In this document: positions 47,307 through 51,842 of the stretch, in pieces
How the letters are laid out: every line of letters begins with the position of its first letter
How positions within the stretch are numbered: position 1 is the first letter of the stretch
DNA from: Nocardioidaceae bacterium
GTDB lineage: Bacteria; Actinomycetota; Actinomycetes; Propionibacteriales; Nocardioidaceae
DNA length: 64,000 bases
Direction: 5' to 3'
NCBI GenBank assembly: GCA_030447865.1
Contig: JAUJOD010000001.1
Coordinates: 730,909 to 794,908, forward strand
Translations under genes and position numbers: made by a program
Notes under the pieces: generated by a model
Database searches by the model: none
Seen by the model: only the letters and a program-made list of their open reading frames with translations
What the model was told of the DNA's origin: nothing

Positions 47307-48884
47307 TCAGTGCGCGCCGTCCTTGGAAAGGACCGCCTTGACGGTGCGCAAGGCGATGAGGACGTCGCGGATCGGATGCCAGTTGTCGACGTAGTCGGAG
47401 TCGATGCGCACCGACTCGTCCCACGACAAGTTGGAGCGCCCGCTTACCTGCCACAGGCCGGTAAGGCCTGGCTTGACCGCCAGCCGCCGCCTCGCCCAGT
47501 CGTCGTACGTCTCGACCTCGTGCGGGAGCGCAGGCCGGGGGCCGATCAGCGACATGTCACCGACGATGATGTTCCATAGCTGCGGCAGCTCATCCAGCGA
47601 GAGCCGACGCAGCCAGTAGCCCACCCGAGTGACGCGCGGGTCGTGCTTCATCTTGAACAGGCCACCGCCGACCTCGTTCTGGTCGAGCACTTCGGCCAGC
47701 CGCTCCTCCGCGTCGACCGTCATCGTCCGCAACTTGTACATCAGGAAGGTGCGCCCATGCTCACGCACCCGAACCTGCCGGAAGATCACCGGACCTGGTG
47801 AGCCTAGTCTGATCAGCAGCGCGCAGACCCCGATCACCGGTAGCGTCACGACGAGAAGCACGGCAGCCACGACGCGGTCGATCGCGCTCTTGATCGCGGC
47901 GACCGCCCCCCGTGGTCGGCGGTGGGCGACATCGACAAGCATCCGTCGCCCGGCCCGGCGTACAGTCGCGCGTGCCTCGACCGTGTTTGTCACCGGAGTG
48001 ATGATCGACAGCTGCGCGCCGATGTCTTCAAGCGTCCACTGCAGCCTGGCCAACTGCAAGCCACCCAGCTTGTCGACGTCATGCACTGCGACGATGTCGA
48101 CGCCAACGCGGCGGCTGACATCCGCGACATCGGCCACTGTGCCAAGGACGGGGATGCCGTTGACGCTGCGCGGACGGTGGTCAGATTCCGACAGGCACAC
48201 GCCGACGATGGATAGTTCCTCGACGCCTTCCCACTCGGCGACGGTGCGGGTGACGCTCTCGAGGTCGCCAACGACAAGGACCGTCTCATCGACGCGCAGG
48301 TTGAACCACCGACGCAGCGCCGGACGGCCGAGGCACCATCGCGCGCCGACGCCGAGGGCGCCCATTGCGGTGCCGATCACCAGCGTCGCTCGGGTGCCGT
48401 ACAGATCGTCGAGGGCAAGCAAAGCCATCAACGTCAAGAAAAATACGAAGCAGACGTTTGCTGACGCGACACGACGCAGATCAAAGAGGTCGGCCATGCG
48501 ACCGTCACGTGTGCTACGGATCGTCATGAACGTGAGCCACAGCAGCGCCACCAAGACCAGCACTGGCCGCTGAAGTAGCCAGGCGGCGCCTAGCCCGATC
48601 GCTGCGATCGTCACGTCGGCGCCCCACAGCAGCCACCGACTCCGCAGGAACGTACTCCGAAGTGTGGCGTCGTGACCGCGGGGCGCTGGTAAGGGGAACC
48701 GGATGATCGGTGCGGACAGTTGGTGGGGCGTGGGGAGACGGCTAGGCGTTGCGGACGCGACGGCCGACTTCGGGGCTGCGCGGTGACGGATGCGAACTGA
48801 CGCGGGGGCGTCCGGATTGCTTGCGGTGGTATCGCCAAGGGCGGGCTCAGGCACAAGCGAGGTCGCGGTAGAAGCTCGCGACAT
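47307..48884 (-). CDS. Polyprenyl-phosphate sugar phosphotransferase (priming enzyme)
   Basis: About 525 residues from ATG 48884, chosen because AAGGGGA lies nine bases upstream; earlier in-frame ATGs at 48971 and 48977 lack it. A basic, disordered N-terminus is followed by four transmembrane helices (WLLWGADVTIAAIGLGAAWLL onward), a CoA-binding-like Rossmann part (VLVVGDLESVTRTVAEW), and a C-terminal WbaP/WcaJ catalytic domain (IDRVVAAVLLVVTLP ... FKMKHDPRVTRVGYWLRRLSLDELPQLWNI ... PGLTGLWQVSGRSN). It starts the polymer by loading sugar-1-phosphate on undecaprenyl phosphate. Confidence 0.9.
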   Translation of the reverse strand: MSRASTATSLVPEPALGDTTASNPDAPASVRIRHRAAPKSAVASATPSRLPTPHQLSAPIIRFPLPAPRGHDATLRSTFLRSRWLLWGADVTIAAIGLGAAWLLQRPVLVLVALLWLTFMTIRSTRDGRMADLFDLRRVASANVCFVFFLTLMALLALDDLYGTRATLVIGTAMGALGVGARWCLGRPALRRWFNLRVDETVLVVGDLESVTRTVAEWEGVEELSIVGVCLSESDHRPRSVNGIPVLGTVADVADVSRRVGVDIVAVHDVDKLGGLQLARLQWTLEDIGAQLSIITPVTNTVEARATVRRAGRRMLVDVAHRRPRGAVAAIKSAIDRVVAAVLLVVTLPVIGVCALLIRLGSPGPVIFRQVRVREHGRTFLMYKLRTMTVDAEERLAEVLDQNEVGGGLFKMKHDPRVTRVGYWLRRLSLDELPQLWNIIVGDMSLIGPRPALPHEVETYDDWARRRLAVKPGLTGLWQVSGRSNLSWDESVRIDSDYVDNWHPIRDVLIALRTVKAVLSKDGAH

Positions 48885-49117
48885 TGGTGATTGTCCCCTT
48901 ACGGCTGTGGGAGGAACGCGAGTTCCCAGCGGATCGGATGGTGGCATCGATCTTTGGACCGTTGGCGTCATTGGCATTTCAGATCGGGTAGTAACGGATA
49001 GTAGCCGTTTTGCCGCCCCTCGGCACCCCCTGTCCGACGAATCCACTGCGGCGTAGGCACCTGGACGACAGACTCCCTGTAGCAATCAGTTCACGTATTA
49101 CGCACCGAGAGAGGTTG

Positions 49118-49133
49118 ATTACTCTCAGCTAAT
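49118..49133. promoter_or_regulatory. BldD-like half box upstream of the priming transferase
   Basis: ATTACTCTCAGCTAAT contains TTACTCTCAGCTA, which differs at two positions from the published BldD consensus TNACNC(A/T)GNGTNA. It lies about 235 bases upstream of the transferase start. It is weaker than the box at 50231. Confidence 0.4.
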
Positions 49134-49265
49134 AAAACGCTCCTCTTACGCAGGGTTCAGGCCCGCGTCACCGCTCGTTCATCCGCATGTGCGGTTTCCC
49201 ACAGAAATTCACCGTAACGGAAGCCGCAGTGCTTCGTTGGAGTCCTTCCTCAAGCTGCACGGACG

Positions 49266-49312
49266 CAACAACGGTCCCGCGGGCTGGGATCACCCGGCAA
49301 GGACCGTTGTTG
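49266..49312. terminator. 12-bp hairpin after the secreted beta-helix gene
   Basis: CAACAACGGTCC (49266-49277) is the perfect reverse complement of 49301-49312 with a 23-base loop, itself able to fold. It lies about 50 bases beyond the stop of the minus-strand gene. There is no T-run, as often in actinobacteria. Confidence 0.6.
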
Positions 49313-49364
49313 TCTGCGGCTGTGACGCTGAGTCAGCAGCCTTGGTGCTACGTCGTCGTCAGTG

Positions 49365-50096
49365 TCAGCCGAGGAGCGAGCATTGGCCCCCGAGACCGGC
49401 GCCGGCTGTGTTTCCCGATCCGACTGGGGCCGGGCTGTTGGCGGAGCAGGCGAACTTGTTCGCGGCGGAGTTGCGCTTCACCACCACCTGGGATGAGTTG
49501 TTGGCGATCGTGATGCTGCCGCCTTGGGTTACGCCCACCTCGTTGTCCGTGAGGCGCGTGAAGGCGCCAGTGTTTCGCTTGACCACGAGACTGTTGCCCA
49601 CGACGTTGTCATGCACGCCGATAAGTCCCGAGTTGCCCACGAGTGTGATGTTCTCGCCGGTCGTCATCTGGCAGATGGCGATGTTGCCGAAGTTGTTGAT
49701 CAGCGTGATGTTGTTGCCGACCGCAGGGTCAACCGCACAACCGGCGGCACCGATGACGATGCGGCGAAGTGTGCCTTGCAGGTTGATGTTGCCGGTGGTA
49801 CCCGTGCCGACGACGTGGGTGTCGATCAGCTGAACCGTCCGAGCGCCGCTTCCGTTGACGTTGCCGTTGATCGTGGAGTTGTGGGAGATCAACGCGGCCC
49901 CCTCAAGGATGCGCACATTGCCGTTCACTGTGGCACCGTCCAGCGTGCAGGTCTCGCCTTCGGGCACGACGACCCGGCCGTCGATCTCGCCGGTCAACGT
50001 GGTCGTACACTCGGTCGCCGTGGCGGCGTTGGACGGAGCCTGCGCCAGGCCCACGACAGCGACGGCAGCGGCAGCGGTTGCCAAGAATTTACGCAT
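49365..50096 (-). CDS. Secreted protein with beta-helix-like repeats
   Basis: 243 residues from ATG 50096, with GAGGGG upstream. A Sec signal peptide (MRKFLATAAAAVAVVGLAQAPSNA) is followed by CTTTLTGEIDGRVVVPEGETCTLDGATVNGNVRI and a series of short strands ending in Gly-Asn: INGNVNGSG, TGNINLQG, GENITLVGNSG. The spacing suggests a right-handed parallel beta-helix. Six Cys may form disulfides. The composition suits a cell-surface or matrix protein. It sits next to the polysaccharide genes and its upstream region has BldD-like boxes. Function unknown. Confidence 0.8.
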   Translation of the reverse strand: MRKFLATAAAAVAVVGLAQAPSNAATATECTTTLTGEIDGRVVVPEGETCTLDGATVNGNVRILEGAALISHNSTINGNVNGSGARTVQLIDTHVVGTGTTGNINLQGTLRRIVIGAAGCAVDPAVGNNITLINNFGNIAICQMTTGENITLVGNSGLIGVHDNVVGNSLVVKRNTGAFTRLTDNEVGVTQGGSITIANNSSQVVVKRNSAANKFACSANSPAPVGSGNTAGAGLGGQCSLLG

Positions 50097-50180
50097 AATG
50101 CCCCTCGTTACTCTCATTACCCTCCGTAACGCTGTATGCGGATTCTGTTGCTTCAGGCGGGGAGGGTGAACCAGTTGGAT

Positions 50181-50193
50181 AACTGAGAGTAAC
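50181..50193. promoter_or_regulatory. BldD-like box (one mismatch) upstream of the secreted protein gene
   Basis: On the minus strand this region reads TTACTCTCAGTTA, differing from TNACNC(A/T)GNGTNA at the central G only. A further, poorer copy (GTTACTCTCATTAC) begins at 50107, immediately by the ribosome-binding site. Confidence 0.55.
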
Positions 50194-50230
50194 GCCAAAC
50201 ATCCCAATGGTGGAAGTGCATAAAAGCGAC

Positions 50231-50245
50231 ATTACTCTGAGTAAT
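50231..50245. promoter_or_regulatory. Perfect BldD-consensus palindrome
   Basis: ATTACTCTGAGTAAT is a perfect seven-base palindrome around a central T. Its core TTACTCTGAGTAA satisfies every fixed position of the published BldD consensus TNACNC(A/T)GNGTNA. It lies 135 bases upstream of the secreted beta-helix gene and 95 bases from the carboxyltransferase stop. BldD-(c-di-GMP) is a repressor in streptomycetes; the presence of BldD in this genome cannot be seen in the window. Confidence 0.65.
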
Positions 50246-50279
50246 TTAGTGCACGCTAAAAGCTATTAATTAACGTTGT

Positions 50280-50317
50280 GTAAAAGCTCAATTAGTGTTG
50301 GGTAAAGGCACAATTAG
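50280..50317. repeat. Direct repeat, 22-bp period, in AT-rich intergenic region
   Basis: GTAAAAGCTCAATTAG (50280-50295) and GTAAAGGCACAATTAG (50302-50317) match at 14 of 16 positions and are 22 bases apart, two turns of the helix. Shorter TAAAAGC copies occur at 50221 and 50257. They resemble tandem operator sites for an OmpR-type regulator. Confidence 0.55.
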
Positions 50318-50339
50318 CACAGCGTTCACGCGGGGGCCG

Positions 50340-51842
50340 TCATACGCTCTGTCGAGCACCGAGGCTGCCGTATCGAGCTGTCCGCAGCCGCCTGAGCTGC
50401 GTGTGGTCGCGCTTCCTCAGAACGGTGAGTTCCTGGCGAAGGAAATCGCCAAGCCGCTCACAAAAGGCCTGCGGTTCATCCGCCGCGTCGGGTCGCTCGG
50501 GAACGATCCGGTCAACGATGCCGGCTGCCAGCAGGTCCAGCGAACGGACGCCTTGCGACCGCGCCAGGTCGGCGGCGTAGTGAGTGGACCTGTGGATGAT
50601 CGCGCTGGCGCCCTCCGGCGGCAGCGGGGAGAGCCAGCCGTGCTGAGCGGCGATCACCCGGTCGGCCGGCAGCAGGGCCAAGGCGCCCCCGCCGGTGCCC
50701 TGGCCGAGCAGTACCGTCAGCGTCGGAGCGTCGACGCTGACCAGGTCAGCTAGGCAGCGGGCGATCTCGCCGGCTAGCCCACCCTCTTCCGCCTCCACCG
50801 AAAGCGCTGCACCGGGGGTGTCGATAACGCTAACCAGCGGCACGCCAAGGTCAGCGGCGAGCCGCATACCTCGGCGGGCCTCGCGCAGGGCGCCCGGTCC
50901 CATCGGCCGCTCCTCGGTCTGCCCCCGGCGGTCCTGGCCGAGGAAGACGCACGGAGCGCCGCCGAAGCGGGCAAGTGCTATCAACAGACCAGGGTCCGCC
51001 TCGCCTTGACCGGTGCCGTTCAGCGGCAGCACGTCGGTGGCGGCGTAGCGCAGCAGCCGACGTACGCCGGGTCGATCGGCCCGGCGCGACCGGAGAATGG
51101 ATTCCCACGCGTCGACGTCAGCGACTGTTTCGTCGGCCCGGGCCGCGACCGGCGCGTCGTCGCGATCCCGAGCGTCGAGGACTGTGAGCGCCCGGGCGAC
51201 GATCCCGGCGATCTCCTCGGGCGGCACCACCGCATCGATCAGGCCGTGCGCATGCAGGTTCTCCGACGTCTGTACGCCGGGTGGGAAAGGTCGGCCGTAC
51301 AGCGCCTCGTAGACCCGGGGACCCAGGAACCCAATGAGTGCACCTGGCTCGGCCACCGTCACGTGCCCGAGCGACCCCCAGGACGCCATCACGCCACCGG
51401 TGGTGGGGTGGCGCAGGTAGACCAGGTATGGCAGCCCGGCGGCCTTGTGCTCGGTGATCGCCGCAGAGATCGTGATCATCTGCACGAACGCGACAGTGCC
51501 CTCCTGCATGCGGGTGCCGCCGGAGACCGGAGCCGCCAGCAGCGGCAGGCGCTCGCGGGTCGCCCGCTCGACGCCGTGCACCAGTCGATCGGCGGCGTCG
51601 ACACCGATCGACCCCGCCAGAAAGCCGAACTCGCAGGCGAGCACCGCAACCCGACGGCCGTGCAGCAGCCCCTCCCCCGTGATCACCGCCTCGTCCAAGC
51701 CGGTGCGCTGGCGGGCAGCCGCCAACTCTGCGGCGTACGGCGCCGGCACGGCGCGCGGCGGCGGCGGCACGTCCCACGATGCGAACGAGCCGTCGTCGAG
51801 GACGAGGTCGATGAGCTCGGTCGCGGTGAGGCGGGTCGTCAC
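50340..51842 (-). CDS. Acyl-CoA carboxyltransferase, fused beta and alpha (AccDA-like)
   Basis: 500 residues. The N-terminal half is AccD-like (LACEFGFLAGSIGVDAADRLVHGVERA, APVSGGTRMQEGTVAFVQM) without a zinc finger, and the C-terminal half is AccA-like (PGALREARRGMRLAADLGVPLVSVIDTPGAALSVEAEEGGLAGEIARCLADLV). It transfers the carboxyl group from biotin to an acyl-CoA, probably a pathway-specific one. GTG 51842 overlaps the CoA-transferase stop by four bases. No biotin carboxylase or carrier is adjacent. Confidence 0.85.
   Translation of the reverse strand: MTTRLTATELIDLVLDDGSFASWDVPPPPRAVPAPYAAELAAARQRTGLDEAVITGEGLLHGRRVAVLACEFGFLAGSIGVDAADRLVHGVERATRERLPLLAAPVSGGTRMQEGTVAFVQMITISAAITEHKAAGLPYLVYLRHPTTGGVMASWGSLGHVTVAEPGALIGFLGPRVYEALYGRPFPPGVQTSENLHAHGLIDAVVPPEEIAGIVARALTVLDARDRDDAPVAARADETVADVDAWESILRSRRADRPGVRRLLRYAATDVLPLNGTGQGEADPGLLIALARFGGAPCVFLGQDRRGQTEERPMGPGALREARRGMRLAADLGVPLVSVIDTPGAALSVEAEEGGLAGEIARCLADLVSVDAPTLTVLLGQGTGGGALALLPADRVIAAQHGWLSPLPPEGASAIIHRSTHYAADLARSQGVRSLDLLAAGIVDRIVPERPDAADEPQAFCERLGDFLRQELTVLRKRDHTQLRRLRTARYGSLGARQSV

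Follow-up and report, generated by a model that had tools for sequence, protein, structure and literature searches.

To our knowledge, BldD, a sensor of the messenger c-di-GMP in Streptomyces, is known from little else than its role in holding back sporulation in that genus and its relatives. The longer form of the BldD consensus is TNACNCWGNGTNA, which was used here as a search pattern. The BldD regulon of Streptomyces was reportedly described by den Hengst in 2010. The BldD-(c-di-GMP) regulon of Streptomyces was described by Tschowri in 2014 (PMC4151990), and the accessible parts of that paper give TNAC(N)5GTNA as the BldD box, RXD-X8-RXXD as the c-di-GMP signature of the protein, and cdgA and cdgB as BldD targets. 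According to the accessible parts of a review (PMC4255298), control of the Streptomyces chaplins and rodlins runs via BldN, a BldD target, and these parts offer no more than conjecture on the role of BldD in other actinobacteria that have retained it. A literature search, mostly of freely available papers, turned up no description of a Nocardioidaceae BldD regulon made up of exported proteins.

The window analyzed here is a stretch of 64 kb (G000:C3:730909-794908) from a 3.12-Mb Nocardioidaceae genome. It includes a 243-bp gap between a gene for a secreted protein and a carboxyltransferase gene (50340-51842, minus strand; PF01039), and exact TNAC(N)5GTNA boxes start in this gap at positions 50117, 50180, 50232, and 50271 (Table 1). 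At 50232-50244, the forward strand reads TTACTCTGAGTAA, which occurs a single time in the 3.12-Mb genome and, as the first-pass annotation had stated, matches every fixed position of the BldD consensus; the match holds for both the long form and the form TNAC(N)5GTNA. Two other copies named in that annotation are present at shifted positions: the one-mismatch copy placed at 50181-50193 lies at 50180-50192, where it departs from the long consensus at one position and fits TNAC(N)5GTNA exactly, and the weaker copy placed at 50107 is better located at 50117-50129 (TTACCCTCCGTAA), which a half copy at 50108 overlaps. The boxes at 50232 and 50180 start 52 bp from each other, and those at 50180 and 50117 start 63 bp from each other (∼5 and 6 helical turns, respectively); the centers of the two strongest boxes precede the start codon of the secreted protein gene by 142 and 90 bp. 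The 50117 box has a score that is expected by chance 2.4 times per 64 kb, and it overlaps a GGAGGG adjoining an upstream in-frame ATG (50117), so that conservation there may reflect translation instead. A scan of positions 49000 to 50400 for sigma-70 promoters found none. Past the stop codon of the secreted protein gene, there is a long hairpin (49266-49316, AACAACGGTCC...GGACCGTTGTT) without a T run, which is kept in the sister species.

Table 1. Predicted BldD-type boxes, their putative target genes, and the regions of the genome with sites of at least 15 bits
Feature	Coordinates	Strand	Description
Secreted protein gene, putative target	49365..50096	-	243 aa, signal peptide, predicted beta-solenoid; possible earlier in-frame start at 50117
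Exopolysaccharide polyprenyl glycosylphosphotransferase gene	47307..48884	-	TIGR03025, 342 bits (cut-off, 295.6); PF02397
Predicted BldD box 1	50232..50244	-	TTACTCAGAGTAA in gene orientation, palindromic; 19.7 bits, rank 1 of 64 kb
Predicted BldD box 2	50180..50192	-	TTACTCTCAGTTA in gene orientation; 18.5 bits, rank 2 of 64 kb
Weaker predicted BldD box	50271..50283	-	TTACACAACGTTA in gene orientation; 14.1-14.2 bits; exact TNAC(N)5GTNA
Weaker predicted BldD box	50117..50129	-	TTACGGAGGGTAA in gene orientation; 11.8 bits
Probable BldD box before sugar transferase gene	49119..49131	-	TAGCTGAGAGTAA; 13.9 bits, rank 4 of 64 kb (palindromic 13-column matrix)
Full-consensus TGACGCTGAGTCA	49323..49335	.	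Between stop codon of secreted protein gene and downstream hairpin; 12.6 bits
Region with at least 15 bits			Secreted protein gene of the window (49365-50096)
Regions with at least 15 bits	C3:687228 and C4:59993		Choice-of-anchor P proteins downstream
Region with at least 15 bits	C3:1301173		Subtilase downstream
Region with at least 15 bits	C3:1140484		DUF5122 propeller protein downstream
Region with at least 15 bits	C3:1141898		Tat-like DUF1800 protein, then DUF1501
Region with at least 15 bits	C3:1146122		SH3-polysaccharide deacetylase downstream
Region with at least 15 bits	C3:215118		Two divergent M36 metallopeptidases

The secreted protein matched no family in Pfam or NCBIfam. Its structure model, built from a 3-row alignment, is a beta-solenoid with a mean pLDDT of 81, and a search for its fold in the PDB returned nothing at an E value of ≤0.001 (the best was 8.9e-3), with solenoids dominating the matches. 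The modeled fold would fit a structural or adhesive role at the surface. The earlier description of the protein as matrix-like holds only in part, the protein having a signal peptide and a predicted beta-solenoid but no named family. The nearest named relatives of the genome, which carry the same secreted protein gene, are Nocardioidaceae metagenome-assembled genomes. The start of the neighboring glycosylphosphotransferase gene is uncertain and could lie as far up as 49085. The box before it, at 49119-49131, has two mismatches to the long consensus and one to the short consensus, and this exopolysaccharide sugar transferase gene is probably a second BldD target, judging from that box.

A bldD gene and c-di-GMP enzymes, which the first-pass annotation had suggested looking for, are both present. 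The genome encodes one BldD, which lies above the cut-off of the NCBIfam equivalog NF050110 (259.4 bits; cut-off, 250) and of PF21179 (107.7 bits; cut-off, 27), shares 54 of 68 aligned residues with the S. coelicolor DNA-binding domain 2ewt, and also matched PDB entry 4oaz. Its c-di-GMP signature RXD-X8-RXXD is intact (RGD-YNGKMLSI-RQDD), and six GGDEF domains were found in the genome. Within the family, BldD was detected above the cut-off in 19 of 81 genomes and below it in one further genome.

A matrix was derived by running EM on the upstream sequences of 18 bldD genes of the family, with nothing from the window included; the set omits the bldD of the sister species G001, which is near-identical to that of the genome itself, and the one at L058, where the start was not recognized. 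EM yielded the palindrome TnACTCnGAGTnA with a log-likelihood of 61.5, compared to 25.4 for the best of 10 shuffled sets. When the 64 kb were scanned with this matrix, a check akin to the promoter scan proposed at first pass, the boxes at 50232 and 50180 came first and second, followed by those at 50271 and 49119, and the first two kept their ranks when the genome's own bldD was omitted from the matrix. The box upstream of that bldD (TAACATTGCGTGA) scores 12.9 to 13.9 bits and is a predicted site of the autoregulation type. The first de novo run had found a conserved TAAAGGATGTC element instead, and EM was repeated after the divergent side had been cut away. This element is strongly conserved in the part of the bldD intergenic region that faces the divergent gene, probably pyrR (bldD upstreams L021-L025 and L044-L057), and is probably part of the pyrR leader.

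The exact consensus TNAC(N)5GTNA occurs 4 times in the 243-bp gap, compared to 12 times in 260 kb of background (13 stretches of 20 kb from the same genome, L114-L126). When other arm spacings were counted in the gap, four boxes were found at a spacing of 5, none at 0 to 4 or 6 to 13, and one at 14. First-order Markov copies of the gap (n = 4,000) contained a mean of 0.08 boxes, with at least two boxes in 8 copies and four boxes in 0, and 0 copies reached the top matrix score of the gap. Sites of at least 13.5 bits number 4 in the window, compared to an average of 0.5 and a maximum of 3 with column-permuted matrices, and 2 in the 260-kb background, compared to an average of 1.6 with 40 permuted matrices; when 200 column-permuted matrices were applied to the gap, 1 reached its top score and 0 reached its top-three sum. 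The suggestion made at first pass, that clustered copies before one secreted protein gene hint at real regulation, gains from these counts, and the box cluster is a genuine BldD-type operator cluster by prediction. In the 260-kb background, TNAC-N5-GTNA is the rarest pattern among spacings 0 to 14 (12 occurrences versus 15 to 42), and stray BldD boxes are possibly avoided in this genome, given that low count at spacing 5. Counting the plain consensus across the 81 family genomes was dropped as an uninformative test of BldD dependence: it is no more common in the 19 genomes with BldD than in the 62 others (2.26 versus 1.87 per Mb; Mann-Whitney P = 0.45). In ten other genomes, where 31 loci of 52 places were read (16 of 25 with BldD and 15 of 27 without), it lies mostly in coding DNA, with and without BldD alike.

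Across the whole genome, a search with three patterns gave 38 distinct places, which were then scored with the matrix; as only places fitting one of these patterns could enter the set, it falls short of an exhaustive matrix scan. The nine places with at least 15 bits are all intergenic and fall into 8 regions upstream of exported-type proteins (Table 1), in agreement with the enrichment in promoters that the first-pass annotation had called for. Of the 14 places reaching 13.5 bits, 11 are intergenic and 3 lie in coding DNA, and below 13.5 bits, 15 of 24 are intergenic, with mixed genes behind them. Two of the 8 regions have another divergent neighbor. A crude signal rule was passed by 6 of the 8 regions, compared to a base rate of 47 of 228 background gene models (P = 0.0015); the rule does not catch the Tat-like DUF1800 protein or, at its modeled start, the deacetylase, and when the N termini of these remaining two were judged by eye, 8 of 8 regions were of the exported type. 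A ninth region, to which the sister species led, contains a box of 17.0 bits that precedes a gene for a small secreted SSWERVGTTGT-repeat protein. None of the genes adjoining the 9 strongest sites was recognized as a developmental regulator (whiG, bldN, bldM, and others). The strong box starts 45 to 57 nucleotides before the modeled start codon in 5 of 9 promoters, a position that suits repression. Because similar sites front other exported-protein genes, BldD probably controls what the bacterium puts on or outside its surface, and the main nonautoregulatory BldD targets in this genus would seem to be exported proteins.

Two of these loci have further features. The SSWERVGTTGT tandem-repeat protein (L144:3568-3816, in G000:C9:46800-54500) is adjoined by a GGDEF gene and has an ortholog in L141. 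A cluster of exported-protein genes (L105, G000:C3:1137000-1153000) has five main intergenic BldD-type boxes of 12.5 to 17.1 bits and comprises genes for DUF5122, DUF1800, DUF1501, and SH3-deacetylase proteins and for an SLT protein with a long PEPQ-rich linker.

In the sister species G001, the box at 50232 is kept as TTACTCACAGTAA (18.7 bits), one arm of the box at 50180 is degraded (TTACTCTGGTTTA, 11.8 bits), and the box at 50271 is lost through a small deletion. The boxes at 50117 and 49119 are identical, the latter in a generally conserved region, and the TGACGCTGAGTCA box is at the same place; the whole region is well conserved in G001, so that box conservation adds little. The ortholog of the secreted protein gene in G003 has two boxes (13.4 and 12.2 bits), and the orthologs in G002 and G004, both genomes with BldD, have no box. 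Of the choice-of-anchor P promoters in G001, one has an identical 15.4-bit box, and the other has sites of 15.2 and 13.2 bits at positions −59 and −79 (−60 and −80 in G000); the gene for the small repeat protein of G001 is also preceded by an equivalent box. Among the choice-of-anchor P genes of six further BldD genomes, weak sites only (9.4 to 10.6 bits) were found in four; no site of at least 8.5 bits was found in G004, which has BldD, or in G022, where the match lies near a contig end and the scanned stretch is misplaced. Choice-of-anchor P genes at three loci of two BldD-less genomes also had no site of at least 8.5 bits. The best box pair of G001 outside the secreted protein gene (18.5 and 14.1 bits) is located just upstream of a GGDEF-EAL gene. 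This membrane GGDEF-EAL gene (L140:776-2740, G001:C4) has a best identity of ∼41% to the six GGDEF loci of G000.

We consider it quite likely that the boxes are operator sites of this bacterium's BldD, which would act with c-di-GMP on the secreted protein gene; binding is inferred here from sequence. At high c-di-GMP levels, two BldD C-terminal domains would be held together by four c-di-GMP molecules, and the resulting BldD dimer would occupy the palindromes at 50232 and 50180, with weaker binding at 50271 and 50117. Bound BldD would most likely repress the secreted protein gene and, via 49119, probably the exopolysaccharide sugar transferase gene too, and as c-di-GMP falls, surface and exported proteins would appear. 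Repression rather than activation seems the somewhat better choice, and control of the box cluster by c-di-GMP is likely.

A chance origin would mean that an AT-rich gap happens to match a loose consensus. The gap does have only 47% GC within a GC-rich genome, and the loose consensus is found everywhere, whether or not BldD is present, but the Markov copies, which share the composition of the gap itself, never reach four boxes, and with the independent matrix and the types of gene that follow the remaining top sites also speaking against it, chance is a very improbable explanation. The palindromes could instead belong to another regulator with a similar site, such as MtrA or a different XRE or TetR repressor, and sites common to the bldD upstreams could in principle be those of such a regulator. 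According to the accessible parts of one study (PMC5650626), the bldD promoter of S. coelicolor is bound by MtrA, whose site KTRACC-N5-GTKAC resembles the BldD box, sharing the half-sites TRAC...GTKA, but consists of direct repeats with one base more spacing. All four boxes here have inverted arms at a spacing of 5, the motif derived from the bldD upstreams gets a good score in palindromic form, and MtrA-type sites with up to two mismatches number 0 in the gap, for which membership in the MtrA regulon was rejected, and only 3 in the 18 bldD upstreams; we therefore regard another owner as rather unlikely. BldO was also discarded, its site being different in the accessible parts of its description (PMC5485038).

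Matrix production rises with c-di-GMP in many bacteria. BldD might bind the boxes and activate, or need no c-di-GMP, and with activation surface proteins would rise with c-di-GMP; the strongest boxes of the window are far enough from the start codon for this. BldD mainly represses in Streptomyces, however, as far as the accessible parts of two papers go (PMC4151990, PMC4255298), the strong box is close to the start in 5 of 9 promoters, and the intact signature of BldD speaks against independence from c-di-GMP, so that we hold this variant to be doubtful, less so than a different regulator.

For repression by BldD with c-di-GMP, the box type is already known, and the exported-protein content of the predicted set is the new and interesting part. 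With genes for exported proteases and surface proteins and an exopolysaccharide gene under BldD boxes, BldD would acquire a concrete, testable role, and c-di-GMP would be linked to the surface of the cell in a Gram-positive lineage. We give even odds to a reading in which, autoregulation aside, BldD of this Nocardioidaceae lineage works chiefly as a c-di-GMP switch controlling the exoproteome and exopolysaccharide, in the manner of a biofilm-style regulon; if true, the exoproteome regulon may illustrate the role that BldD had, or acquired, apart from the sporulation program.

The predicted system resembles the Streptomyces BldD regulon in its TNAC(N)5GTNA box, in a BldD with RXD-X8-RXXD, in a box upstream of bldD, and, in G001, in a c-di-GMP enzyme gene behind a box. 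It differs in that the top sites front genes for proteases, choice-of-anchor P proteins, a beta-solenoid protein, a DUF1800 protein, and a deacetylase rather than sporulation regulators, and in that an exopolysaccharide gene is probably behind a box here and boxes lie at the exported-protein genes themselves. Compared to the chaplin/rodlin system, as outlined in the accessible parts of the review (PMC4255298), BldD would stand above surface-protein expression in both cases, there via BldN and here through boxes placed directly at the surface-protein genes.
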